Assembly (NCBI GenBank): GCA_028687545.1
Contig: JAQTZZ010000038.1
Span: forward strand, 1 to 36,606
Origin: Candidatus Wallbacteria bacterium
GTDB lineage: Bacteria > Muiribacteriota > JAQTZZ01
Length of the DNA stretch: 36,606 bases
Reading direction: 5' to 3'
In this document: positions 4,367-35,375 of the stretch, in pieces
Numbering within the stretch: the stretch's first letter is position 1
How the letters are laid out: each line of letters starts with the position of its first letter
Notes under the pieces: generated by a model
The model's database searches: none
What the model was told of the DNA's origin: nothing
What the model saw: only the letters and a program-made list of their open reading frames with translations
Position numbers and translations under genes: made by a program

Positions 4367-4636
4367 TCAGGCGACTTTGATCTCTTTATTTTCTTGTTGA
4401 TTCTGAGTAACACTTTTGTTTGCAGCAGTTTCAGGTGGTTTCAGCTGTTCGATCTCGAACTCGACCGGAAGCTCATAGAACAGCACTTTCTTGAGCTTCT
4501 CAAACAGCATGCCGAACCAGCCCACGGCAGCTTCCTGCTGGGGCTGCAGGCATTTTTCGATAACCTCCAGATCCGCATAAACTTCAGAGTACAGTTTATC
4601 CAGAATTGGTTGGTGGTAGTTTTTTAGGTTCTTCAT
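4367..4636 (-). CDS. Small hypothetical protein
   Basis: I do not recognise this 89-aa protein. It is predicted largely helical, with an aromatic, hydrophobic centre (AVGWFGMLFEKLKKVLFYELP), an acidic N-terminal third (DKLYSEVYADLEVIEKCL) and a polar Gln/Asn/Lys-rich tail. There is no signal peptide and no convincing membrane helix. Upstream of the ATG only ctaaggt is present, very close to the start, so initiation is weak. The opposite-strand 77-aa frame has a less protein-like composition. The gene stands alone in an AT-rich stretch, with nothing else evident in 4177-4366. Confidence 0.5.
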   Translation of the reverse strand: MKNLKNYHQPILDKLYSEVYADLEVIEKCLQPQQEAAVGWFGMLFEKLKKVLFYELPVEFEIEQLKPPETAANKSVTQNQQENKEIKVA

Positions 4637-4915
4637 ACCTTAGAAATATCGACTGAAATGGGAATTTTCTTCAAGGTTATGTGGTAATAAAAAAAACTTG
4701 AACAACTTTGTTATTTTTCGCATACTTAAATCATCCAAAAAATACAAAAAAAATAATCGGTTTAAGGTTTTTCGATTCTCCCGGGTGTCTTTGCGCCGGA
4801 ATGGCGGATTTAAGGGCTAATTCTCCGGAAAGAGCTTTAGTATGCTTCTTTATCTATTTCGCACTGGAGATTGCCAAGAAAATATTTTAAAGAACTGGGG
4901 AGAGGGTATCCAAGT
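4637..4915. other. AT-rich intergenic stretch before flhF
   Basis: No gene is supported here. The first 120 nt are A/T homopolymer-rich. The part from about 4770 is GC-richer and could be the flhF leader, but I see no known riboswitch core. The ribosome site GGGGAGAGGG for flhF lies at 4897-4906. Confidence 0.5.
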
Positions 4916-5995
4916 ATGTATGCACATGAAGCCAAGAAGTATCTAGTTAAGTCCATGTCTGAAGCAAGACAGATGATCAAGAGCGACCTGGGCGAAGAAG
5001 CAGTGATTCTGCACAGCAAGAGGCTGGATGATGGAGCAAGTTCATATGGAGGAGCTTTTTTTGAAGTTCTTGCTACTGCCGAGCGGAAATGTTTTGCAGT
5101 GAACACTCTTCGTCCTCAAGACAAGATCAAACAGCTGGAGAGCGAACTTAAAGAAATCAAGGAAACACTGACCCAGCTTGTTTCTCTCTGCCAGCAAAAA
5201 AAAGGAAATCTCGAAAACACGTCGCATTCACCGACCGAAAAAAAACTGATGGAACTTGGCATCGACGAACCGGTGGTGAAAAAACTGGCATCCGAAATGG
5301 AAATGTTTGACGACAAACTCGATTTTGAAAGCAAACTCTCAAAAATTATCGAAAAGTTACCGGCTGCAGTAGACATCAAACAAAAAATATACGCTTTCAT
5401 CGGGCCTACCGGAGTCGGTAAAACCACCACTCTGGCCAAGATATCTTCTGCGCTGAAGCTGTCGGAAAGCGAGCTGGACCCGCATCGGATTATCTACATT
5501 ACACTGGACCATTACAGGCTGGGGGCCCCGGAACAGCTCAAAAACTATTCAGACATACTGGATTCCAAGACATATCGTGTTTACAGCGTGGAACAGCTGC
5601 AGACAGTGATCAACGAGCATCAGGACCATCATGTCTTCATCGACACCTGCGGCAGGAGCCAGCATGACTGCCTGGAAATACTGGAGTCATTCATGTTTCT
5701 AACCACGCTTGGCAAGAAGGTTTATAAGTATCTTGTGCTTTCAGCTGTCACGAAGTATGATGACCTTGTGGATATCTGCGAATCATACAAAAAATTCGAT
5801 TATGATGAGATAATTTTCACCAAGCTTGATGAGACCACGAATTTCGGCAATCTCTTCAGCCTGATTTACCTGTTCGGGTTGCGGATCAGATACATCACCA
5901 TGGGACAGATGGTGCCTGAAGACATCAGGTCATTCGATATCAGGCGGGATCTGTTGAATTTTCTATTGCATCCAAATCTGGTAAGAGTGGGCTGA
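4916..5995 (+). CDS. flhF: FlhF-like SRP-family GTPase
   Basis: FlhF is a signal-recognition-particle GTPase that sets polar flagellar (or pole-located apparatus) placement. The N-terminus [29 protein letters not shown] is the B domain typical of FlhF. The G domain begins near residue 160: P-loop [15 protein letters not shown], then [19 protein letters not shown] (DTAGRS in most members) and TKLDET. An ATG at 4916 with GGGGAGAGGG nine nt upstream is preferred to a TTG at 4871, giving 359 aa. The usual neighbours flhA, flhG and fliA are absent. Instead a sugar acyltransferase starts one nt after the stop. A role in placing another polar structure is possible. Confidence 0.88.
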
Positions 5996-5996
5996 A

Positions 5997-6575
5997 ATGA
6001 AGAAGGATATTTTTATACACGACTCGTCTTACGTGGATGAACGCGTGAGGATCGGAAGCGGTACGAAAATCTGGCACTTCTGTCACATACTTCAGGACAC
6101 TGAAATCGGCGAGAACTGTGTATTCGGGCAGAATGTAATGGCAGGGCCGTCAGTCAGGATCGGGAATGGCGTCAAAATTCAGAATAATGTGAGTATTTAT
6201 AAGGGAGTGACTCTGGAAGATTTCGTATTCTGCGGTCCTTCGATGGTCTTCACCAATGTGATCAACCCGAGAAGCAAGATTGAACGGAAGAATGAATTCA
6301 AATCTACACTGGTGAAAAAATGCGCTACACTCGGCGCAAACTGTACTATCATCTGTGGCGTGACTATCGGTGCATATTCCTTTGTAGCAGCAGGAGCGGT
6401 GGTGACCAGAAATGTCCCTCCATACGCTCTGGTTGCCGGAGTACCGGCCAAGATCATCGGATGGATGTGTGAATGTGGAAACAGAATTGGATTTACTAAA
6501 GGCAAAAATGGGAAATGCTCTGACTGCGGAAAAAAATATCGCGAGAAAGCGGAGAACAAGATCGAGCCTTGCTGA
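5997..6575 (+). CDS. WbpD/WlbB-like hexapeptide-repeat sugar N-acetyltransferase
   Basis: This 192-aa left-handed beta-helix acyltransferase resembles the enzymes that acetylate the 3-amino group of UDP-2-acetamido-3-amino-glucuronate for O-antigen or S-layer glycans. Visible marks are hexapeptide repeats ([44 protein letters not shown]), the FTNVINPR segment, [13 protein letters not shown] and the end motif [26 protein letters not shown]-terminal zinc-ribbon-like tail has CxC and CSDC pairs, which also occurs in WbpD relatives. It starts one nt after flhF and overlaps the next gene. No nucleotide-sugar dehydrogenase or aminotransferase partners are in view, so the exact substrate is inferred. 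Confidence 0.85.
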
Positions 6576-8430
6576 GGCGATTTTATTATTGATTTTATTG
6601 TCCTCAGGACTGTTCGCCGACGACCTGGACCTGTTCAGGGAAGGGTACGAACTTTATAAAAATCACAGCTACAATCAAAGCCTTAATCTGCTCAGAAAAA
6701 TCTCACGTCAATATACAGCTTATGATTACGTCTATTATTTAATTTTGAAAAACTGCGATCGTCTGAATGATCCGATTTACGAAAACCTGATCCTGAAAGC
6801 CGACGATTTTATCAGTCAGGATTTCCCCTATTTCAGAGAAATCGTCGAAACCAGGAAATCAGTTCTGCTAGCGCGAAAAAAATATGCCGAAGCCCTGGAA
6901 TTGACAAGGAATTATCAATCCCATGGAGAATTCCTGCTCTGTGAATTGAGGATCGCAGTCCGAACTGGAGTGCGCAACAATGTTTACGGGACTCTCAATC
7001 TGCTCCTGGAGGAGCAGGACATGGAGCTGGCCAAGCGAGCCCTTCAGTCACTGGGACCTTTTTACAGCGACTGCTGGAAAAGCGTTCTTTCCCGGAATTT
7101 CTTCCAGTTTGCCTCTGCACTGGTGGGGATTAACTCAGGGAAAGCTCTCGAAGTGATCGGGAAATCAGATTTGAGTAAGGCTGACCGCAACTATCTGACC
7201 GCACTGGTTGAATTTCACAGGGACAACATTCCTGCCTCCTGGGAACAGGTAAAAACAGCACTTAACAGTAAAACACAGGCCAGATTTGAACTGATGCTGG
7301 ATTTTCTGCAAGTTCTGAAAAAGAAGGAAAGGAAGTTCTGCGAATATCTGCCAAAGATCGAGCCATACCTGACCGAATCGTTTTTTTCCCAGAAGGAAAT
7401 TTCCGACCTGTATCTGGAGACAGCCAGGATAATGCTTTCCTCTGATTCGGAAAAAGAAAGCTTGCGGCTTTTTAAGAAAGCGCAGGGTTTTGCTGAAAAG
7501 TGTCACGACGCTGAGCACGATGCTGAGAGTCTTTACAACCTGGCTAAGTGTTCATTCCGCTACAAGAATTATCAGGGAGCTTCCTATTTTTCCAAACTGT
7601 TCATCGCTAAATACGGGAACCATAAATACGCTCCTGAGATTTATTTTCTACGCTACCTGCTCGGGAAATTGCTGAAGGACGCGGAGTTTGTTTCGTCAGC
7701 TGCTGATGTGTTACTTACCGACTATCCTGAAACTCCCTACAGTTATTACATCCTGGCTTCCGGAAGAAAATTCAGATCTGAAAGCGCGGATGCATTAGAT
7801 ACATACCAGCCACAGCCAGTTACAGCTGAGATGAAAAAACAGAAATATTACCATCTGTTCAAGGCAGGATTTGTCAAGGAAGCCCTCGATCTGATCAAGA
7901 AACTTCCGGACGAGCGTGAAATCCAGGTGTCGCTTGGATATTACAGGCTGGTGGCAGCATACTCTGATTCGGCAGTTTTTTACGCTGATCTGATCAACAA
8001 AAGGGCCGGGACATACAAGCTTGATCCCGCATTGATTCTTGCCGTGATCAGGGAAGAGTCCCGTTTCGATTTCCGCGCAGTCTCATCTGCTGAAGCCATG
8101 GGTCTGATGCAGATCATGGACGGCACCTACAGCTGGCTCTGCAAGCAACTCGAAATCCGGAAAAAAGGTGCACAGGCGCTGCTCGATCCTGATCTCAATG
8201 TGACTCTGGGCAGCGCATATCTGAAAATCCTCGAGGACAGGTATTCCGGTTACCCCGAAAAATTGATTTATGTAATTGCGGCATATAATGGCGGTCCCGG
8301 TAATGTCGACAAATGGATAGATCGTTACGGACCTGAAAATTTTCTTCTGTTCGTGCCGTTTTCAGAGACTAAGAATTACCTCGCAAAAGTATTCAAAAGC
8401 TATTACAATTACAGAAATCCTTCCGAATAA
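6508..8430 (+). CDS. Secreted TPR lytic transglycosylase (Slt70-like)
   Basis: This soluble lytic murein transglycosylase cleaves peptidoglycan between MurNAc and GlcNAc in the periplasm. The longest open frame runs further upstream, but the ATG at 6508 gives a good signal peptide: basic KRRTR, hydrophobic [11 protein letters not shown], and cleavage after LFA. This makes a 640-aa precursor overlapping the acyltransferase by 68 nt in another frame. Residues about 45-480 are helical TPR-like repeats, as in the Slt70 doughnut. The catalytic SLT domain starts near 500 with REESRFDF (catalytic Glu near 515), [21 protein letters not shown] and PFSETKNYL. Co-directional with flhF and the radical SAM gene, it suggests envelope remodelling near an assembly site. 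Confidence 0.9.
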
Positions 8431-8450
8431 TTCAAAAGCTGGAAAGTTTA

Positions 8451-11057
8451 ATGTTCAAAGCCATTGTCCCCACAGATCGTCTGCCGATCCTGATCCTGGA
8501 CACGATCAGTTACTGCAACCTGCACTGCGTGATGTGTCCGCAGGGAGACCCGGTAGTGAAAGCCAGTACTCCCCGCGGGCAGATGGATTTCGGGCTGTAC
8601 CGGAGTATCATCGACGAGATCACTTCAACTGACGGAATCAAGGTCGATGCGATTCTCCCGTTCTGGAACGGTGAAGCGCTGCTTAACCCGGAATTCAGGG
8701 CAATGGTCGAATATGCAGCGGCCAGGCATAAAATCCTGCCCGGATTCAACGTGTTCTCCATGCATACCAATTTTCTGCTCTGCGATCCTGAGATGAGCAG
8801 AGCGATCATTCGATCCGGCATTTTCGGGCCGATCACTGTTTCCATCGATGCTGTAAACCAGAACACTTATGAAGGAATCAGGCAGGGAGGAAAATTCGGA
8901 GTCCTTCTGCAAAACCTGGAATTCTTTCTGGATTACCGCAGGACTGCGGGGTTGAAATCCCCGAGCATCACTGTGCAGTTCATCGTGATGGACAGAAATC
9001 TTAATGAAGCTATCGAATTCAATCGATTCTGGCAGCAGAAATTCGCAGAATTCGGGAGCTCTCCCCAAATTGTTTTCAATGATTCCGCAAGTTTCGACCG
9101 TGACACGATATTTTTCCGGCTGTTACAGACAGGAGATCCGGCTGGGCAGGCTGAAGCGCGCAACCTGCACTCCCAGATCCGTGCTAAACTTGAGCGCGAG
9201 TCTCAAGCTGCCAGGGTGACTTCTCTGGAAACAGCTAAAGAGGCTGCTGACAGCGGCAGGCCACCATGCGTAGTGCTGTGGCAGCAGCTTGCGGTGCGTT
9301 ATGATGGAACAGTATCACCCTGCTGCCGTGATATCGGATGCTCAATGGAGCTCGGGAATATCAGGGAAAAATCACTGAAGGAGATTTTTTTCGGGGCTCA
9401 GATCAATCAGTTGAGATTTTCCCATATCAGGGGTGAATTTTCCGCTCTGCCGCTCTGCTCAAACTGCCTCGACCAGACCTCTCATGAGATAACCCTGGAA
9501 GAGATTTCCAGGTTTCTCAGCTCAGTCGGGCGCAGCGATCTGGAATCAGGATTCGTGTGCCGTGTCGCTAAAAAAATTCCCCGGGAAAACTCGGCAACCC
9601 ACTATCAGAAGGGACGAAAATCCTTGCAGAAGGGTGACTATCTGAAGGCTGTGGAAGAATTCAGCGAAGCTCTCAGGCATTCCGAAAACGCAGAAATCTG
9701 GGCAGGACTTGGGGAGGCTTATGGTTTCATTGGAAAATACCAGGAAGCCAGGGAAAATTTGAAGAAAGCCATGGAGATCGGCAAATTTTCTCCGGAAGCT
9801 CCGCTGGACGGATACTGTCTGGGTCATTCATTATACAAAGCGAGAGATTCTTTTCTTAAAGCCTTGCTGCTGGATGAGAAAGCAGACTATTTTCACAGCC
9901 TGGGACAGGTGGCACTCTATTCCAGAAATTTCCACGAGGCAGTGCATTATCTCGAACTGGCGGTGGAAAAAGGTGTGAGTGCCGCTGAACGGGATCTCGC
10001 GCTCTGCCATTATCTGAGCGGGGATCCTGAAAAAGCCCTGAAATATTACCCGTATCTGGACCATTTTTCCGCAGAACTGGCTGAAGTCTGCGAAAAATTG
10101 AAACCAGGCTCTTCGAGAGTCTTCAGGCTGGGAAATTCTCTTACTGAAACAGCGGGCAGATTCGTCAAACCGACCATCGCATATGCGCTGGCGGATGAAT
10201 TTAATCTGAGGGTTGTGAACCTGGGTGTAGGCGGCGACTCCGTTTCAGACCTCTATCACAGGATTTCAGCGCAGATGGAAACCTTCCAGCCATTGAGGGA
10301 TAATTATTTCGTGGTCTTCATCGGCGCAAATGACGCCCTGATGGAGCGCGACCCGGCTGAATTCAGAGAGTTTTACCGGAAGTTGTTAAAACTGTTCCCG
10401 GCACTGTCCACGCTCTGCCTGACTCTCCCGGATATTTTCTGCAAAACTAAAATTGGCAATCCTCCTGATACTTCTCTCTACAACAGTATCATTGCGACTG
10501 TTGCCGATGATGCAGGCTGCAAGCTGCTTGATCTTGCCAAAACAGCTCTGCCTCCAGACTGCTATCTGGAAGACGGTTTACATTTCAAAACCAGGGGGTT
10601 AGAATTGATCGAGGAAGCGATCAACAGATCCCTCGGCAGCATGATGCGGAAAGCGAGAATTGGATTGAACGCGACTCTCGAAGCATACAGACAGTTCCAG
10701 GCTGGAAAATCCCCCGCTGATTTCCTGATCCTGGCCGGTTTTCTCACTGAACGGAAAAAATACCGGACATTGCTGGTACTTCATAAATATTACAGAATCA
10801 AGGAACTCAAAGTTTACGCTTATCTGGCTGAGGCACATCAGAAAACAGGATCATACAAAAGGGCCAGGCTGATGTTCTACAAGCTCTCCCGCAGGCTGGA
10901 CCCGCGCTTTTATGAATCTGTGGCCTATTGCCTGAGGATGGAAGGGAAATATTTCCTGTCCACATTCGCTTATCTGTTTTCAGCTCTCATTCTTAAAAAA
11001 CCATCGCTGATCAGGAATGCCTTTTACAATTTCAGGCTGCTGGGCAGAACTCAGTGA
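8451..11057 (+). CDS. Radical SAM/SPASM - TPR - SGNH hydrolase fusion protein
   Basis: This 868-aa protein joins three modules. Residues 1-345 are a radical SAM domain with the cluster motif CNLHCVMC (Cys 22, 26, 29), followed by a SPASM-like Cys region (CVVLW near 273, SPCCRDIGC near 290, CSNC near 343) that would bind extra Fe-S clusters. Residues about 380-550 carry TPR-like repeats. Residues about 555-715 form an SGNH/GDSL-type hydrolase: GNSLTE (Asn for the usual Asp), NLGVGGDS, FIGAND and DGLHF, giving Ser, Gly, Asn and Asp-x-x-His blocks. A final helical TPR-like part follows. It starts 20 nt after the transglycosylase and shares a GTGA overlap with the next gene. The substrate is unknown; peptide or glycan modification followed by deacylation is speculation. 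Confidence 0.85.
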   Translation: MFKAIVPTDRLPILILDTISYCNLHCVMCPQGDPVVKASTPRGQMDFGLYRSIIDEITSTDGIKVDAILPFWNGEALLNPEFRAMVEYAAARHKILPGFNVFSMHTNFLLCDPEMSRAIIRSGIFGPITVSIDAVNQNTYEGIRQGGKFGVLLQNLEFFLDYRRTAGLKSPSITVQFIVMDRNLNEAIEFNRFWQQKFAEFGSSPQIVFNDSASFDRDTIFFRLLQTGDPAGQAEARNLHSQIRAKLERESQAARVTSLETAKEAADSGRPPCVVLWQQLAVRYDGTVSPCCRDIGCSMELGNIREKSLKEIFFGAQINQLRFSHIRGEFSALPLCSNCLDQTSHEITLEEISRFLSSVGRSDLESGFVCRVAKKIPRENSATHYQKGRKSLQKGDYLKAVEEFSEALRHSENAEIWAGLGEAYGFIGKYQEARENLKKAMEIGKFSPEAPLDGYCLGHSLYKARDSFLKALLLDEKADYFHSLGQVALYSRNFHEAVHYLELAVEKGVSAAERDLALCHYLSGDPEKALKYYPYLDHFSAELAEVCEKLKPGSSRVFRLGNSLTETAGRFVKPTIAYALADEFNLRVVNLGVGGDSVSDLYHRISAQMETFQPLRDNYFVVFIGANDALMERDPAEFREFYRKLLKLFPALSTLCLTLPDIFCKTKIGNPPDTSLYNSIIATVADDAGCKLLDLAKTALPPDCYLEDGLHFKTRGLELIEEAINRSLGSMMRKARIGLNATLEAYRQFQAGKSPADFLILAGFLTERKKYRTLLVLHKYYRIKELKVYAYLAEAHQKTGSYKRARLMFYKLSRRLDPRFYESVAYCLRMEGKYFLSTFAYLFSALILKKPSLIRNAFYNFRLLGRTQ

Positions 11058-11497
11058 CAGAATTCCTGAAGATCCTGACTGTTCTGATGCTCGGCCCTTT
11101 TGAACTCTGGGCAGCGATCCCTGCAGGATTCACTTTCGGCTTTTCCCCGCTCAAAACCTTTTTCTGGGCAGTTACCGGCGGCACCTGCGGATCAGTCGCA
11201 GTGGCTGTACTTGGAGTCAGGCTGCGTGATTGGGCACTTAAAAAAATCCAGCTGCAGATTTCCCTGGAGGGCGAAGGCAGATTTTACAGGATCTGGAACA
11301 GATACGGGATCCCGGGGATCGGCCTGCTTTCTCCACTGCTGACCGGCCCGTTTCTGGGCATGCTGATCGGCCTCGCCCTCAGCGCTGAACCGAAGCGGCT
11401 GCTGTTCTGGACAGTCTGCGGAGTGCTGCTCTGGAGTGCAGGCCTGACCCTGGCCGGCATGACCGGGCTGGCGGGATTCAGGGCTCTGGCGGGTTAA
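11054..11497 (+). CDS. Small multi-drug export family membrane protein
   Basis: This 147-aa inner-membrane protein has about four hydrophobic segments and the marks of the Pfam small multi-drug export family: the start FELWAAIPAGFTFG (glutamate in the first helix), a loop RLRDWALKKI, then WNRYGIPGIGLLSPLLTGPFLG and a last pair of helices. Function in the family is poorly defined despite the name. It starts at a GTG that overlaps the stop of the radical SAM fusion gene by four nt, so the two are translationally coupled. It ends convergent with the ankyrin gene, sharing the palindromic TTAA stop bases. Confidence 0.8.
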   Translation: MTEFLKILTVLMLGPFELWAAIPAGFTFGFSPLKTFFWAVTGGTCGSVAVAVLGVRLRDWALKKIQLQISLEGEGRFYRIWNRYGIPGIGLLSPLLTGPFLGMLIGLALSAEPKRLLFWTVCGVLLWSAGLTLAGMTGLAGFRALAG

Positions 11498-12624
11498 AAA
11501 GTATTTTTTGGTTTTTTAGAAGTTTTATCAGACATTTTGGAACGAATCAGTTCAAGTAAGTCTTTACTTATGTTTGAAGGAGCAAAATCAAGGATTGTGT
11601 ATCCCATGGGATGAACAAGATTGACATCCGCCCCTTTTTCTATCAGTAATTGAGAGATCTTAAACATGGAGTGAGACACTGCCAGTGTCAGGGCTGACAT
11701 ACCATTGCCATTAACTGCATTTACATCAACACCTTTTTCGATTAATAATTCAGCAATTTCTGTCTGTTTAAATTCAATGGCAGTCATCAAGGGAGTATCA
11801 TTTTTATATCCTTTCTGATTGATCTCGAGACTCTTGGAAATCATGTCTAGTGCGATTTTTTGATCATTGTAATGGATTGCATATTGAAGGATTGTATCAT
11901 CTCTGAGTTCATTCGTATCCAGGGAGTTGAATTCATTTCCCATGTAATTTTTGTAGAGCTGGTCAGCAATGTCAGAATATCCAAATTTGATCGCAGTTTT
12001 CAGTGAGCCTGTTTGGGTATAGTAAAATTCCTTGTCTTTGCGGAGTATCTCGTTTGCCAGATCCTGAAAACCGAAAATCATCGCATAGCAAAGCGGTGTT
12101 GAAAGAAATCTTTTTTCAATTTCATTCAGATTTATTCCATCTCTAATCAACTCTTCAGCTTTCTGTCTGCCGTGAAACTTGAATACAGGATCCAATTTCC
12201 AGTCATTTAATGCTCCGATCAAAGAATCAACAGGAAAACAATCGATTTCCAGCTTTTCTTTAGGTGGAAAAAGACATCCATGATAGCTGCATTGGCAGTA
12301 ATATCTTGGAACTGCATTAACAATAATGTACTGACCATTATTTGGGCATTTGAATTTTTCCAGCAAATGGGAATCCTTATTAAATTTATCCAGGCGGCCC
12401 GGAGTTGTTTTTTGATACAAATAGTCCCAAAAACCAGGGTTAATGGCCATCTGATTTGCCATGCATTTATTTATACCGTCCACTTCCAGATTATATCGTT
12501 CGGTTTTAGTTACTTCTTCAAATCGTCTGAGGATTGAGTTTATGTTGAGACAAATTGCCACAACAGAAAGATAAAATCCCAGTGCCAGAATGAAAAAAAA
12601 CAAATGAAGTGTTTTTTTTCTCAT
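11494..12624 (-). CDS. Membrane-anchored ankyrin protein with pilin-like head region
   Basis: This protein of about 376 aa has a single N-terminal membrane segment (TLHLFFFILALGFYLSVVAICL). The following region looks like the head of type IV pilin-like proteins: KCMANQMAI, then FKCPNNGQYII and CQCSYHGC, matching the C..N..AI / CPNGG.Y / C..HG pattern of many predicted pseudopilins, though no prepilin cleavage site is seen. Residues about 155-365 hold six or so ankyrin repeats, the last two near consensus (DTPLMTAIEFKQTEIAELLIEKG, MSALTLAVS). ATG 12624 is chosen over an in-frame TTG 36 nt upstream; neither has a strong ribosome site. The ankyrin part may bind periplasmic partners. The function is unknown. 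Confidence 0.75.
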   Translation of the reverse strand: MRKKTLHLFFFILALGFYLSVVAICLNINSILRRFEEVTKTERYNLEVDGINKCMANQMAINPGFWDYLYQKTTPGRLDKFNKDSHLLEKFKCPNNGQYIIVNAVPRYYCQCSYHGCLFPPKEKLEIDCFPVDSLIGALNDWKLDPVFKFHGRQKAEELIRDGINLNEIEKRFLSTPLCYAMIFGFQDLANEILRKDKEFYYTQTGSLKTAIKFGYSDIADQLYKNYMGNEFNSLDTNELRDDTILQYAIHYNDQKIALDMISKSLEINQKGYKNDTPLMTAIEFKQTEIAELLIEKGVDVNAVNGNGMSALTLAVSHSMFKISQLLIEKGADVNLVHPMGYTILDFAPSNISKDLLELIRSKMSDKTSKKPKNTF

Positions 12625-12728
12625 CCAAGTATTGTACTTAGTTTTCTTCAATTTCCGCAAATTTAATAAAATCCGTTATACTAAGGTCAAATTTTGCTAA
12701 TTCCAGCCTGTTTCAGTATATTGAAGCT

Positions 12729-14891
12729 ATGAAAAGAAACTTCGAGCTGCTGCTTCCTGCCGGAGATCTGGCTTCTTTCAAGGCTGCCCTGGCTCTCAAG
12801 GCCCCGGCCGTTTACTTAGGTTTCCACAAGTTCTCCGCCCGGAAGCGGGCTGCCAATTTCGGTCTCTCGCAGCTGATGGACATCATCCACACGGCTCATC
12901 TGCAAGGGATGAAAGTTTATCTCACCCTGAACACGATCATTTATCCGTCAGAGATGAAGAAACTTCTCACATTTCTGTATTTCATGTCCAAATGCCCGCC
13001 TGACGCCCTGATCATCCAGGATCTCGGACTGTATAAGATTTTGCGGGAGAAATTCCCGCAACTCGTGCTCCATGCTTCCACCCAGATGAACAATTACTCC
13101 ATTCATTCCTTGAAATTCCTGGAAGAACTTGGTTTTTCCCGAGCCATTCTGGCCAGAGAGACCACCAGAACTGAAATGATCGCAATGAAGAAGGCCGTAA
13201 AACAGCTGGAACTGGAAGGATTTGTCCATGGAGCTCTCTGTGTGGCCTTTTCAGGAGTCTGCTATTTTTCCAGCTTTCACGGGGGCAGAAGCGGGAATCG
13301 CGGCGACTGTGCCCAGCCCTGCCGCCTGGATTACAGCCTGGTGCGTGACGGCAAGACGCTGGGTCAGGCCGGCTGGCTGTCTCCCAGGGATCTCTGCCTG
13401 GCGGATGAAATTGCGGAACACCCGCTCTGCTTTTTCAAGATCGAGGGCAGGCTCAAAAATTCAAATTACGTCTATCAGGTCGGGGAACATTACCTGAAAA
13501 CGCTCTCTGATTCGACGGCAGGGAAAAATCCGCTGGATTTTGTGTTCAACCGGGATTTCACTAAAGGCCATTATAATCATAGAAATCCCAAAGGTCTGAT
13601 TGAATCGAAAACTCCAAGGGGCCAGGAGATCGGAAAAACCAGGGCAGAGGGGAACAACTGGATCGAGGCGGAACTTACCAGGGCTATTGAACCAGGCATG
13701 GGAATCCTTTTCGGACAGAGGGGCGGGATCATTACCAAAGCCGATCACAGCGGTATTTTCTGGAAAATCTGGGGTGGATTCAAGGGAGACCCTCAGAAAA
13801 AGCCTGAAACAATTTTTCTGAATTACGTACCTTCGACCGCTGACTGCGAAAAAATCGTGCTGGAAAATTTCCAGTCTGAGTTCGAGCTGAAGGTGTTTCT
13901 GAAGCCGCATGAAAAAATCCGGTACTGGATTGAGGAAGAGGAATTCAATTCAGAGATCGTACTTGATGCAGCCCGTACTCCGATGGATATGGGACAGTTC
14001 AAAGAAAAACTTGAAGTATTCAAAGCTGAAAAGATGAAGGCAGACGTGACGATTACTGTGGAAGGGCAGCCGTTTCTGAGCTATACCATGCTGAACAGAT
14101 TCAAGCGGGAGATCAGGGAGAGGCTCTTTAAAAAGCTAAAACACGATTTGGTTTTAGCCACAAGTGGAGTTTTTCGGACTGGGAAAACGGTGAGTCAGAA
14201 GACCAGGCAGCTCTGGGCCAAAGTCTATTCTGAAGCGGATTTCAGGAAATATCAGAAACATGCTGATAAATTCGCAGGTCTGTATTTTTATTACGAACTC
14301 GCGGAGATAGTGAATGTCTCCGCTAATCATGTACCCTGGTTGTTTCCAGTGGGTTACGAGGATCGTGGAAAAATCCTGTCCGGTTTGTGGAACCAGGGAT
14401 TCAACAGGATTCTGGTCGCAGACACAGGCACCTGGCAGCTTGCCAGGCAAAAGGGATTCCAGGTCATGCTTGATTATTTCCTGCCGATGGCAAACAGTTC
14501 AGCACTTGTCTTTGCAGGAGATCAGGGTATCAAGCGCCTGACAGTTTCTCCGGAACTTCCTGTGAGGGAACTGGAATTTCTGCTCTCAGGCGAACATCCA
14601 GTGGAATGCGAACAGGTGGTTGTTTTCAAGCCAGTGCTGTTTTTTTCAGCCTGCTGCTTTTACAATCAGCTCCAGGCAAAGGGGAGGATTTCTCTGGAAG
14701 GATTGCGTGGCGGAAACTATCCCCTGAAGCGGGAGCGCTGCCTGAATTTCCTCATACATGAAAAGTATCTCTCCCCGAAACCTGATCCTTGTGCTGACAT
14801 TTACAGAGTGGATTTTTCATTTTCTGCAGAGAACGAGCGCCAGTTCGATCAGGCTTTTTCGGATTTTCTTTTAAAGATGAAAATCACCTGA
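12729..14891 (+). CDS. Peptidase U32 family protein (RlhA/YegQ-like)
   Basis: This 720-aa cytoplasmic protein is of the U32 family, which includes RlhA (23S rRNA cytidine hydroxylation), TrhP (tRNA uridine hydroxylation) and putative collagenases. The N-terminal barrel opens ELLLPAGDLASFKAAL with VYLGFHKFSAR, then HASTQMNNYS, and the family Cys cluster EGFVHGALCVAFSGVCYFSS...GNRGDCAQPCR near residues 162-200, followed by SPRDLCL and KIEGRLKN. The second half is long, as in RlhA, with RNA-handling extensions. Hydroxylation of RNA is more likely than proteolysis by homology, but the target cannot be read from sequence. A TATACT box sits at 12678-12683 and the ATG follows a weak ribosome site. 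Confidence 0.88.
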   Translation: MKRNFELLLPAGDLASFKAALALKAPAVYLGFHKFSARKRAANFGLSQLMDIIHTAHLQGMKVYLTLNTIIYPSEMKKLLTFLYFMSKCPPDALIIQDLGLYKILREKFPQLVLHASTQMNNYSIHSLKFLEELGFSRAILARETTRTEMIAMKKAVKQLELEGFVHGALCVAFSGVCYFSSFHGGRSGNRGDCAQPCRLDYSLVRDGKTLGQAGWLSPRDLCLADEIAEHPLCFFKIEGRLKNSNYVYQVGEHYLKTLSDSTAGKNPLDFVFNRDFTKGHYNHRNPKGLIESKTPRGQEIGKTRAEGNNWIEAELTRAIEPGMGILFGQRGGIITKADHSGIFWKIWGGFKGDPQKKPETIFLNYVPSTADCEKIVLENFQSEFELKVFLKPHEKIRYWIEEEEFNSEIVLDAARTPMDMGQFKEKLEVFKAEKMKADVTITVEGQPFLSYTMLNRFKREIRERLFKKLKHDLVLATSGVFRTGKTVSQKTRQLWAKVYSEADFRKYQKHADKFAGLYFYYELAEIVNVSANHVPWLFPVGYEDRGKILSGLWNQGFNRILVADTGTWQLARQKGFQVMLDYFLPMANSSALVFAGDQGIKRLTVSPELPVRELEFLLSGEHPVECEQVVVFKPVLFFSACCFYNQLQAKGRISLEGLRGGNYPLKRERCLNFLIHEKYLSPKPDPCADIYRVDFSFSAENERQFDQAFSDFLLKMKIT

Positions 14892-15068
14892 TCTCAAAAA
14901 TAAATGCACCGCAGACAAATATAATTGTAACTAATTGTAACAAATTGTAACTGGATTAACCTTTTGTTAGCGGGTATTATCGGAAGTGAAGAGCAGAGAA
15001 CAGATACGAGGTACCCCCCTCAGTTCAAAACCTCTTCAGACCTGTAGTCCACTTATACTCTAGTCCTC
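14892..15068. other. Non-coding stretch with tandem AATTGTAAC repeat
   Basis: No gene is supported. At 14923-14951 aattgtaac occurs three times at an exact 10-nt step, placing the copies on one face of the helix. The rest up to 15068 shows no recognised element. Confidence 0.6.
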
Positions 15069-15101
15069 TAACCGCTCATCATGAGCGGTTACCTTCTTTT
15101 T
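15069..15101 (+). terminator. Candidate Rho-independent terminator
   Basis: taaccgctcat at 15069-15079 pairs perfectly with atgagcggtta at 15081-15091 around one base, and ttcttttt follows. The T-run suits the plus strand, so it could end the U32 transcript about 180 nt downstream of that gene. Confidence 0.5.
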
Positions 15102-15103
15102 AG

Positions 15104-15229
15104 GCAGATTGTTGAAAAACGACCATCTGCGGCGTTGCGCCCTTCCTGCGCAACTCAAAGTACCTTTTAGTACATCTCGCTTTGCGCTGAATCGCGCGCC
15201 TTGCATCTGGTCATTTTTGAACAATCTGC
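15104..15229. repeat. 126-nt imperfect palindromic element
   Basis: The outer arms gcagattgtt-g-aaaaa-c-gacca (15104 on) and the reverse complement of its right end (to 15229) are nearly identical. Inside are gcgcaa...ttgcgc and gtac...gtac pairs, giving a nested hairpin through most of the element. It ends one base before the panE stop codon. I recall similar elements as dispersed repeats in deltaproteobacterial genomes, but could not check. There is no coding capacity, so it fits a MITE-like or structured-RNA repeat. Confidence 0.75.
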
Positions 15230-33220: not shown

Positions 33221-34423
33221 GTGAAAGTACTTGTGTTAAATTGCGGCAGTTCCTCGGTAAAGTACCAGCTTCTGGAAATGGACACAGAAGATGTGATCGC
33301 CAAGGGACTGATCGAACGTGTGGGCAAAAATGACGCCATCATCAATCATTCTCCCAAAGGGCATCCCAAAGTGAATTACGTTGCTCCAGTCCTGTCCCAC
33401 AAAGTCGCGGTGGAGCAGATGATCAAAGAGCTCACTCACAAGGATTACGGAGTAATCAAGGATAAAGATGAGATTGTGGCTGTCGGACATCGGCTTGTAC
33501 ACGGCGCGGAAAAATTCGCCCATTCGGTGCTGATCAACCAGGAAGTGATTTCAAAGATGGAGGAATGCATCGAACTCGCTCCCCTGCACAACCCTCCAAA
33601 CATCATGGGTGTCAAGATCATGCAGGAACTGCTGCCCGGCAAGCCACAGGTAGGAGTTTTCGATACTGCCTTTCATCAGACTATGCCGGATTACGCTTAT
33701 CTTTATGGGCTTCCATACGAATTCTATAAAAAATATGGAGTCAGGCGATACGGTTTTCACGGCACCAGCCATTTCTATGTGGCCAACGTGGCAGCCCAGA
33801 AAGAAGGAAAAAACATCAATGATCTCAAGATCATCACGATCCATCTGGGAAACGGCGCCAGCATCACAGCTGTGGATCACGGAAAGTCAGTGGACACCAG
33901 TATGGGATTGACTCCACTGGAAGGACTGGTAATGGGTACCCGTTGCGGTGATATTGATCCGGCCATCCCATTTTACCTGGGACGCAAACTGAAGCTGGGG
34001 CTTTCCGAACTTGACGATCTGCTGAACAAGAAAAGCGGGATGCTGGGTATTTCCATGCTTTCCAACGACATGCGTGAAATCGAATCCAGGATGACTGATG
34101 AGAAAGATCCTCACTGCACACTGGCGATGAAAATATACTGCTACAGGATCAGAAAATACCTCGGTGCCTATGCCGCAGCCATGGGGGGACTGGATGTGGT
34201 GGTCTTCACGGCTGGAGTTGGAGAAAACAGTCCTGTGACCCGCGCGATGGTCTGTGAAAACCTTGAGTTCTTGGGGCTCAAAATTGATAAAACAGTAAAC
34301 AATGCCCGCGGATTCGTAAAATTCTCAACCCCGGATTCCAGGGTCAGTGTTTATGCGATTCCCACCAACGAGGAACTGGTAATTGGAAGGGACACGAAGA
34401 GAATCGTCGAAAATAAAATGTAG
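33221..34423 (+). CDS. ackA: Acetate kinase
   Basis: Acetate kinase makes ATP and acetate from acetyl phosphate in fermentation. This 400-aa ASKHA-fold enzyme shows VLVLNCGSSSVKYQLLE, VGHRLVHGAEKF, LAPLHNPPNIMGV, VFDTAFHQTMP, RRYGFHGTSH, IHLGNGASITAV, DTSMGLTPLEGLVMGTRCGDIDP and FTAGVGENSP, all catalytic blocks intact. GTG 33221, five nt after cggaggg, gives the canonical N-terminus and is preferred to the ATG six codons earlier. The stop codon TAG lies inside the palindromic repeat at 34420. Phosphotransacetylase is not in the window. Confidence 0.97.
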   Translation: MKVLVLNCGSSSVKYQLLEMDTEDVIAKGLIERVGKNDAIINHSPKGHPKVNYVAPVLSHKVAVEQMIKELTHKDYGVIKDKDEIVAVGHRLVHGAEKFAHSVLINQEVISKMEECIELAPLHNPPNIMGVKIMQELLPGKPQVGVFDTAFHQTMPDYAYLYGLPYEFYKKYGVRRYGFHGTSHFYVANVAAQKEGKNINDLKIITIHLGNGASITAVDHGKSVDTSMGLTPLEGLVMGTRCGDIDPAIPFYLGRKLKLGLSELDDLLNKKSGMLGISMLSNDMREIESRMTDEKDPHCTLAMKIYCYRIRKYLGAYAAAMGGLDVVVFTAGVGENSPVTRAMVCENLEFLGLKIDKTVNNARGFVKFSTPDSRVSVYAIPTNEELVIGRDTKRIVENKM

Positions 34424-34447
34424 GGGTGAACGGCCGTTCGCCCTTAC
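34420..34447. repeat. GTAG...CTAC palindrome, copy 4, spanning the ackA stop
   Basis: gtaggggtgaacgg pairs with ccgttcgcccttac over all 14 positions (two G-T pairs). The first bases overlap the last codon and TAG stop of ackA. It matches copy 3 in size and end sequence. Confidence 0.8.
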
Positions 34448-34469
34448 GAAGAGGCACCGCAAGGATCTG

Positions 34470-35375
34470 ATGGATACCAGCCAGTTGAAAAATATTTATC
34501 TTGGATGCACCTACAGCGACGAAGAAATCCTGGAAACCTTACAATCCTATCTGGATCGAAGGCTGGCAGTCAGGTTTCTGCGTGACCGGGCTGAATTGAA
34601 TAAGGTGGTTCTCGTTTACAGTCTTCTGGAATGGAAGGAAACACAATTTTCCGAACAGGAGATGACCTACGATGATGCGAACGGAGAATATAAGGCCTTC
34701 ATCGACCTGGGACAGCACCGTTCAGCCTGCTGGAGATTCAGAGTGCATGAAGGGGAAACGATCCGCTGGGAAGACAGAAACCAGCGCAACTGGTTCGTCA
34801 ACACCAGTTCAGGCATCTGTTTCTCGCGCTTCCAGGACATTCCCGCAAGAACGGCCCGGCTTCTGGCTGACGGAAAGATCGTCGCCTGGTTCCAGGGTGG
34901 TTCCGAGTTCGGGAGCCGCGCACTCGGAAACCGCAGCATCCTGGCTGATCCGCGCGATCCTCAGATGAAAGACAAGCTCAATCAGAGGGTCAAACACAGG
35001 GAATGGTTCAGGCCATTCGCTCCTTCCTGCCTGGCTGAATATGCGGCAAATTATTTCGATCCGCCCGGTCCGTCGCCATATATGATGACTGTTTCGGGCG
35101 TCCTGCCTGATAAATGCAGCCTGATCCCTGCTGTGGTGCATGTGGACGGCACTGCCAGGCTGCAGACTGTGGAAAAAGACCAGAACCCCTTGTTCTACTC
35201 CCTGATCGATGAATTCCGCAGGATCACCGGTATCCCGATGCTCCTTAACACCTCGTTCAATCACTCGGACGAACCGATCGTGGAAACCCCGCGGGACAGC
35301 CTGGCCTGTTTCTTGAATACTGGGATCGATTGCCTGGTGATGCACGATTTCCTGATCTGGAAGAAGGAAATATGA
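34470..35375 (+). CDS. NodU/CmcH-type carbamoyltransferase C-terminal domain protein
   Basis: This 301-aa protein matches the C-terminal ATP/carbamoyl-adenylate domain of NodU/CmcH O-carbamoyltransferases. The start IYLGCTYSDEEILETLQSYL is that domain's usual beginning. Then comes a stretch of about 90 residues (40-125) not typical of the family, before LLADGKIVAWFQGGSEFGSRALGNRSILADPR (135 on), KHREWFRPFAPSCL and MLLNTSFNHSDEPIVETP. The large N-terminal Kae1-like domain is missing altogether. Ser replaces Pro in FGPRAL. ATG 34470 has aaggat upstream. The stop overlaps the next start (ATGA). It may be a stand-alone transferase or work with another chain. Confidence 0.8.
   Translation: MDTSQLKNIYLGCTYSDEEILETLQSYLDRRLAVRFLRDRAELNKVVLVYSLLEWKETQFSEQEMTYDDANGEYKAFIDLGQHRSACWRFRVHEGETIRWEDRNQRNWFVNTSSGICFSRFQDIPARTARLLADGKIVAWFQGGSEFGSRALGNRSILADPRDPQMKDKLNQRVKHREWFRPFAPSCLAEYAANYFDPPGPSPYMMTVSGVLPDKCSLIPAVVHVDGTARLQTVEKDQNPLFYSLIDEFRRITGIPMLLNTSFNHSDEPIVETPRDSLACFLNTGIDCLVMHDFLIWKKEI

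Follow-up and report, generated by a model that had tools for sequence, protein, structure and literature searches.

A radical SAM/twitch, TPR and SGNH hydrolase fusion in a single reading frame of a Candidatus Wallbacteria bacterium

Contig JAQTZZ010000038.1 of a Candidatus Wallbacteria bacterium (36,606 nucleotides, analysed over its full length and called the window below) carries a gene at 8451-11057 on the forward strand, with an ATG start, 868 codons and no internal stop, whose product combines in order a radical SAM domain, a twitch domain, a tetratricopeptide repeat (TPR) array, an SGNH (GDSL) hydrolase domain and a helical C-terminus (Table 1). This architecture is secure, and the joining of radical SAM/twitch, TPR and SGNH modules in one chain was seen in no other genome or paper searched. 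A sequence-only reading of the same DNA had described one uninterrupted frame in which a CNLHCVMC motif, TPRs and SGNH blocks follow each other, and the open frame, the Pfam search and the motif positions agree with it; its further statement that no described enzyme is known with this order also stands, no counterpart, described or sequenced, having been found in the genomes and literature searched. To its list of modules a fifth is added, a helical, TPR-like segment at about residues 746-868 that is conserved in an orthologue from the genome STB_16. Key residues of the radical SAM and twitch domains are conserved, and the locus is syntenic with that of the orthologue, relative to which the TPR array and SGNH domain are inserted. 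Reading the protein sequence revealed neither a signal peptide nor a membrane-spanning segment, as expected for an iron-sulfur cluster enzyme.

Table 1. Domains of the fusion protein and neighbouring genes in the window.
Feature	Residues	Position (strand)	Basis
FlhF-like SRP GTPase		4871..5995 (+)	PF00448, 6e-31; conserved upstream, syntenic, 46%
Hexapeptide sugar acetyltransferase-like gene		5997..6575 (+)	PF00132, 1.2e-21; conserved upstream, syntenic, 68%
Lytic transglycosylase		6412..8430 (+)	SLT, E 2.6e-29; conserved upstream, syntenic, 36%
Radical SAM domain	1-270	8451..9260 (+)	Pfam, conserved residues, AF2, Foldseek
Twitch-type (one-cluster) SPASM domain	271-370	9261..9560 (+)	Pfam SPASM, BtrN alignment
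TPR array (first half of inserted block)	371-545	9561..10085 (+)	Pfam TPRs
SGNH/GDSL hydrolase domain	546-735	10086..10655 (+)	Pfam, PDB matches, motif positions
C-terminal TPR-like helical domain and stop	746-868	10686..11057 (+)	Orthologue identity, AF2
Small membrane protein (Sm_multidrug_ex)	147 in total	11054..11497 (+)	PF06695, 1.8e-9

The radical SAM part carries its cluster cysteines C22, C26 and C29 in a CX3CX2C arrangement (CNLHCVMC, residues 22-29) and a conserved SAM-binding GE position within PFWNGE (70-75); C22/C26/C29 and P70-E75 are invariant in five relatives. The Pfam Radical_SAM match (residues 19-179, E 1e-5) reaches 26.1 bits, below the cut-off of 29.5, while the STB_16 orthologue scores 40.7 bits, above the cut-off, which most of the paralogues scanned also pass. 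The AF2 model has a pLDDT of about 80-94 across much of residues 40-240, and its Foldseek matches include anSME, SkfB, SuiB, MoaA, BtrN and DesII, the last a sugar enzyme; the highest target-normalised TM among the matches listed was that of BtrN (0.68). Motif, orthologue score and AF2/Foldseek together place the protein in the radical SAM superfamily as defined by CX3CX2C on a partial TIM barrel. The SPASM-like cysteines of the sequence-only reading are present, and Pfam SPASM matches residues 273-339 (E 5e-14), but by sequence the domain is of the one-cluster twitch type: a SPASM domain with two auxiliary [4Fe-4S] clusters needs some seven or eight cysteines to bind them, and only C273, C291, C336 and C339 occupy SPASM positions here, all four invariant in the five relatives, with C292 invariant but adjacent to C291 and C297 not conserved. 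One auxiliary cluster is therefore expected. Twitch is a truncated SPASM that binds one auxiliary cluster, and the twitch enzyme BtrN carries out a two-electron oxidation of an aminocyclitol, its low-potential auxiliary cluster being ligated by four cysteines (PMC9012708). In a phmmer comparison, residues 165-238 of BtrN (2-deoxy-scyllo-inosamine dehydrogenase, PDB 4m7s/4m7t; numbering of 4m7s) align ungapped to residues 269-342 of the fusion protein, and the two have in common the CX3CX2C motif and four auxiliary-cluster cysteines at identical spacing (18/45/3), although full-length similarity is weak (E 6e-7) and BtrN, unlike the fusion protein, has neither TPR nor SGNH. NCBIfam radical SAM equivalogs all scored far below cut-off, and the protein belongs to neither of the best-matching families, TIGR04317 (tungsten-cofactor oxidoreductase maturase; 74.9 against 380 bits) and TIGR04311 (74 against 400 bits), both radical SAM/SPASM putative metalloenzyme maturases.

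Pfam TPR models match at about residues 380-540 (TPR_2, the best at E 4.5e-13, with TPR_12 and TPR_16), where the AF2 model shows alpha-hairpins with pLDDT up to 78, falling below 50 at 445-476. The adjoining domain matches Lipase_GDSL_2 (PF13472) over 560-716 at E 7e-17, scoring 62.9 bits where the cut-off is 32.9, and Lipase_GDSL at E 1.5e-8. It holds SGNH blocks I (GxSx), II (G), III (GxND) and V (DxxH) in order, as GNSL at 561-564, GVGGDS at 592-597, GAND at 625-628 and DGLHF at 708-712, and motif positions suggest as putative catalytic residues the nucleophile S563, block II G592-G595, N627 and the dyad D708/H711. Single-sequence AF2 gave pLDDT 45 for the SGNH region alone and about 30 for the same region in the full model, values too low to read a flavodoxin-like SGNH fold from them. 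Elsewhere the full model is decent, namely in the radical SAM domain, the C-terminus and some of the TPRs, but it does not place the domains relative to each other. Helices over about residues 790-860 of the C-terminal module reach pLDDT 70-87; the TPR match of this module is weak and occurs in the STB_16 orthologue only (E 0.016).

The single same-family genome compared was STB_16 (Candidatus Wallbacteria, genome G001), which is 92% complete and comes from a neighbouring genus. Its orthologue (JAQTRI010000061.1, L044/L071 6208-7809, 534 aa) aligns by BLASTP with 52% identity over residues 1-364 of the fusion and 47% over 746-860, with no significant BLASTP match to residues 365-745, the TPR array plus SGNH domain. 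A tree built from 47 radical SAM/twitch domains places these two proteins as sisters with support of 100/100. Synteny extends upstream through a beta-propeller-like repeat gene (recognised by eye), the FlhF-like GTPase, the hexapeptide acetyltransferase and the lytic transglycosylase, and downstream to PanE-like and VWA genes. With one orthologue to compare, the TPR and SGNH block is either a domain insertion here or a loss in STB_16; gain in this lineage is simpler, because the next paralogues out (L002, L052, L010) are too short for these blocks. GC3 and codon scores of the insert match those of neighbouring genes, falling inside their range or near it. Since the STB_16 orthologue is without the SGNH domain, the radical SAM part evidently exists independently of it, and the fusion looks like a lineage-specific, possibly two-reaction enzyme.

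Our full explanation, offered tentatively and at less than even confidence, is that the protein could be a bifunctional radical SAM-esterase whose two activities share a single acylated substrate, probably of the sugar type, while the TPRs provide a scaffold. It would descend from a radical SAM/twitch protein that ended in a TPR-like tail and that survives as the 534-residue STB_16 orthologue, and a TPR array and complete SGNH hydrolase would have been spliced between the two parts of this ancestor in this lineage, giving what may be a cytoplasmic, oxygen-sensitive bifunctional enzyme. Its CX3CX2C cluster would cleave SAM, the 5'-deoxyadenosyl radical would abstract a hydrogen atom at a carbon of carbinol or amine type in a small molecule, probably a nucleotide sugar, sugar-lipid or amino-sugar, and a second electron would pass to a single BtrN-like auxiliary cluster, for a net two-electron oxidation or, with return of the hydrogen, an epimerisation. 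The SGNH domain, through S563, N627 and D708/H711, may strip an acyl group, most likely acetyl, from that same molecule or from a precursor of it. The TPR segments may tie the catalytic modules to one another or serve as a docking site for a partner. We infer the substrate class, the reaction type and the coupling of both activities. A sugar-type substrate is favoured because of the BtrN-like single cluster, the acetyltransferase-like neighbour (68%) and the acyl-removing character of the added domain; that neighbour, two genes upstream and syntenic across genera, would supply the acyl group for the esterase to remove. Counting against this explanation, several of the weak NCBIfam matches are to maturases of peptides or metalloenzymes. 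That one substrate undergoes two consecutive steps, as the sequence-only reading had suggested, is plausible, and reactions of one pathway are often joined by natural fusions; it is rather doubtful that one chain, made recently by placing a TPR-SGNH block inside an older radical SAM/twitch-TPR enzyme, channels a single sugar-type substrate through both a deacylation and a radical oxidation or epimerisation, in a phylum that employs radical SAM/twitch domains as general modular plug-ins. If both sites do share one substrate, the esterase domain is a clue to the target of an orphan radical SAM/twitch family. The two orthologues occupy the same locus and only one has the insert, which allows a direct test of what the inserted domain does.

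An alternative explanation, somewhat unlikely in our judgement, could be that a single scaffold carries two enzymes that are independent of each other, the SGNH domain having been put into a TPR-tolerant region as an esterase or thioesterase with a housekeeping role and no relation to the radical chemistry. The STB_16 orthologue lacks SGNH, so that a common substrate for the radical and esterase activities is not required; many proteins of the genome mix TPR, SGNH and radical SAM modules, shuffling being common; and the nearest solved SGNH relatives by sequence are generic SGNH/GDSL esterases (PDB 7ddy, 1yzf and 7c2a, E 4e-7 to 8e-6), which align over blocks II, III and V and stand alone, whereas the SGNH domain of the fusion is joined to radical SAM. 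Precise in-frame placement and expression as a single chain, however, usually mean a benefit from co-localisation. With a single example, the kept catalytic residues are not evidence for selection on both activities. Unlikely as we hold it to be, a peptide or protein substrate is a serious rival to a sugar-type one. Here the radical SAM/twitch part would be a maturase that modifies a polypeptide held by the TPRs, whose usual role is to bind proteins, and the accessory SGNH domain would remove an ester-linked group from it, consistent with the Foldseek matches to anSME, SkfB and SuiB and with NCBIfam matches to metalloenzyme and RiPP maturases (TIGR04317, 6e-21; TIGR04311, 9.5e-21; PapB, 3e-10); those NCBIfam scores are all far under cut-off, however, no precursor-peptide gene was recognised adjoining the fusion gene in a non-exhaustive survey of small ORFs, and the conserved neighbour is a sugar acetyltransferase rather than a peptide gene. 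It is quite improbable that SGNH and TPR are non-catalytic recognition modules recruiting a substrate to the radical SAM domain, for although other paralogues bear binding modules (CBM_11/CIA30-like repeats and B12-binding), neither the nucleophile serine nor GxND nor DxxH has been lost here, and pure binding would need none of them. Least probable, to the point of being negligible, is an assembly or binning chimera of two genes, an error the sequence-only reading had allowed for and which we reject: the genome is a 108-contig draft and the exact fusion is without a second copy, but both protein ends match one orthologue with order kept, flanking genes are syntenic on both sides, codon usage of the insert is native, and two joins, both in frame inside one syntenic gene, would have been required.

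The SGNH part has no close relative among the sequences searched. A single-query search (P0001) of genome contigs gave no match, and a radical SAM alignment searched against genome contigs recovered four loci only, all from Wallbacteria/Muiribacterium. The SGNH region was searched against 382 genomes, nearest kin first, of which 22 matched, all weakly except the window itself, the best matches outside the window being 24-40% identical at E 1e-7 or weaker. Ten matches were retrieved, and no CX3CX2C motif was found in the frames read, those of 540 and 907 aa being read in part; in the 540-aa case the longest ORF may lie on the opposite strand, which weakens the negative there, and the matches not retrieved have frames of 180-514 aa, with frames of 455-540 residues only partly covered. 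Two further matches, 241 and 277 residues long, are GDSL proteins of the ordinary kind. No plasmid matched the SGNH region, and viral contigs yielded one weak relative, too few for a deeper alignment. In the open-access literature no paper joined radical SAM, SPASM, GDSL and fusion; searches for radical SAM with SGNH, and for a radical SAM, SPASM and tetratricopeptide fusion, returned unrelated work only, judged by title and abstract, and none was found on radical SAM in Candidatus Wallbacteria.

The gene does follow a lytic transglycosylase, as had been noted (BB0259-like, E 2.7e-34, below cut-off), which probably starts later than 6412, its longest ORF overlapping the preceding gene. The acetyltransferase-like gene matches the NeuD/PglB/VioB family at E 4e-23, below cut-off, and the FlhF-like gene falls just under the NCBIfam FlhF cut-off (E 4.4e-47). 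On the other side, the membrane-protein ORF overlaps the stop of the fusion gene by 4 bases, through which the two are probably translationally coupled. The coupling proposed earlier thus keeps its overlap, but its implied functional link is not supported, the PF06695 gene being absent from the STB_16 locus, and the expectation that it always follows fails there. Searches covering all of the G001 (STB_16), G002 and G006 genomes did not find it, and within the set of genomes checked it is confined to this lineage. Between the fusion and the PanE-like gene, which is directly next in STB_16, lie the PF06695 gene, a gene for an ankyrin protein on the opposite strand and a U32-family gene; these three (11054-14891) are absent from the STB_16 locus and differ strongly in GC (0.59, 0.36 and 0.49). 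Elsewhere in the window, a 330-aa ORF at 34383-35375 holds a carbamoyltransferase C-terminal domain (PF16861, E 1e-71) at residues 158-327, with no N-terminal carbamoyltransferase domain recognised.

This lineage habitually shuffles radical SAM, SGNH and TPR modules, so that the fusion stands less alone than it first seemed to. The host genome encodes about 20 radical SAM/twitch proteins, several fused to other modules, including radical SAM/twitch-TPR fusions at L039 (three genes), L041 and L043. It also has 15 GDSL matches, and at six of the ten loci read (L077-L081 and L084) sequence reading found SGNH proteins that begin with a hydrophobic segment and hold a TPR array inside the fold, after block III and before the terminal DxxH, both domains being Pfam-confirmed in two of the six. 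These share the SGNH and TPR combination with the fusion protein, but are apparently membrane-anchored, carry the TPRs inside the SGNH fold, are without radical SAM and have SGNH sequences not close to that of the fusion. More broadly, radical SAM/twitch proteins are numerous in Wallbacteria and come with partner modules that are interchangeable, a set almost unstudied. The radical SAM/twitch proteins at L004, L054 and L011 have N-terminal regions of about 410-450 aa unrecognised by Pfam. At L039 (G000:C2:134000-149000, 4418-13617) three close radical SAM/twitch-TPR genes of 879-1109 aa stand in tandem with differing TPR copy numbers, which suggests recent duplication. At L038 (G000:C3:156000-171260, 5153-15208) five radical SAM/twitch ORFs lie in tandem on one strand, adjoining a FliM/FliN-like and a methyltransferase-like ORF (both by eye); one encodes a 1096-aa protein (5153-8440) with tandem SPASM, B12-binding and radical SAM followed by a second radical SAM/twitch unit, and another a 1212-aa protein (11573-15208) with repeated CBM_11/CIA30-like modules and then radical SAM/twitch.
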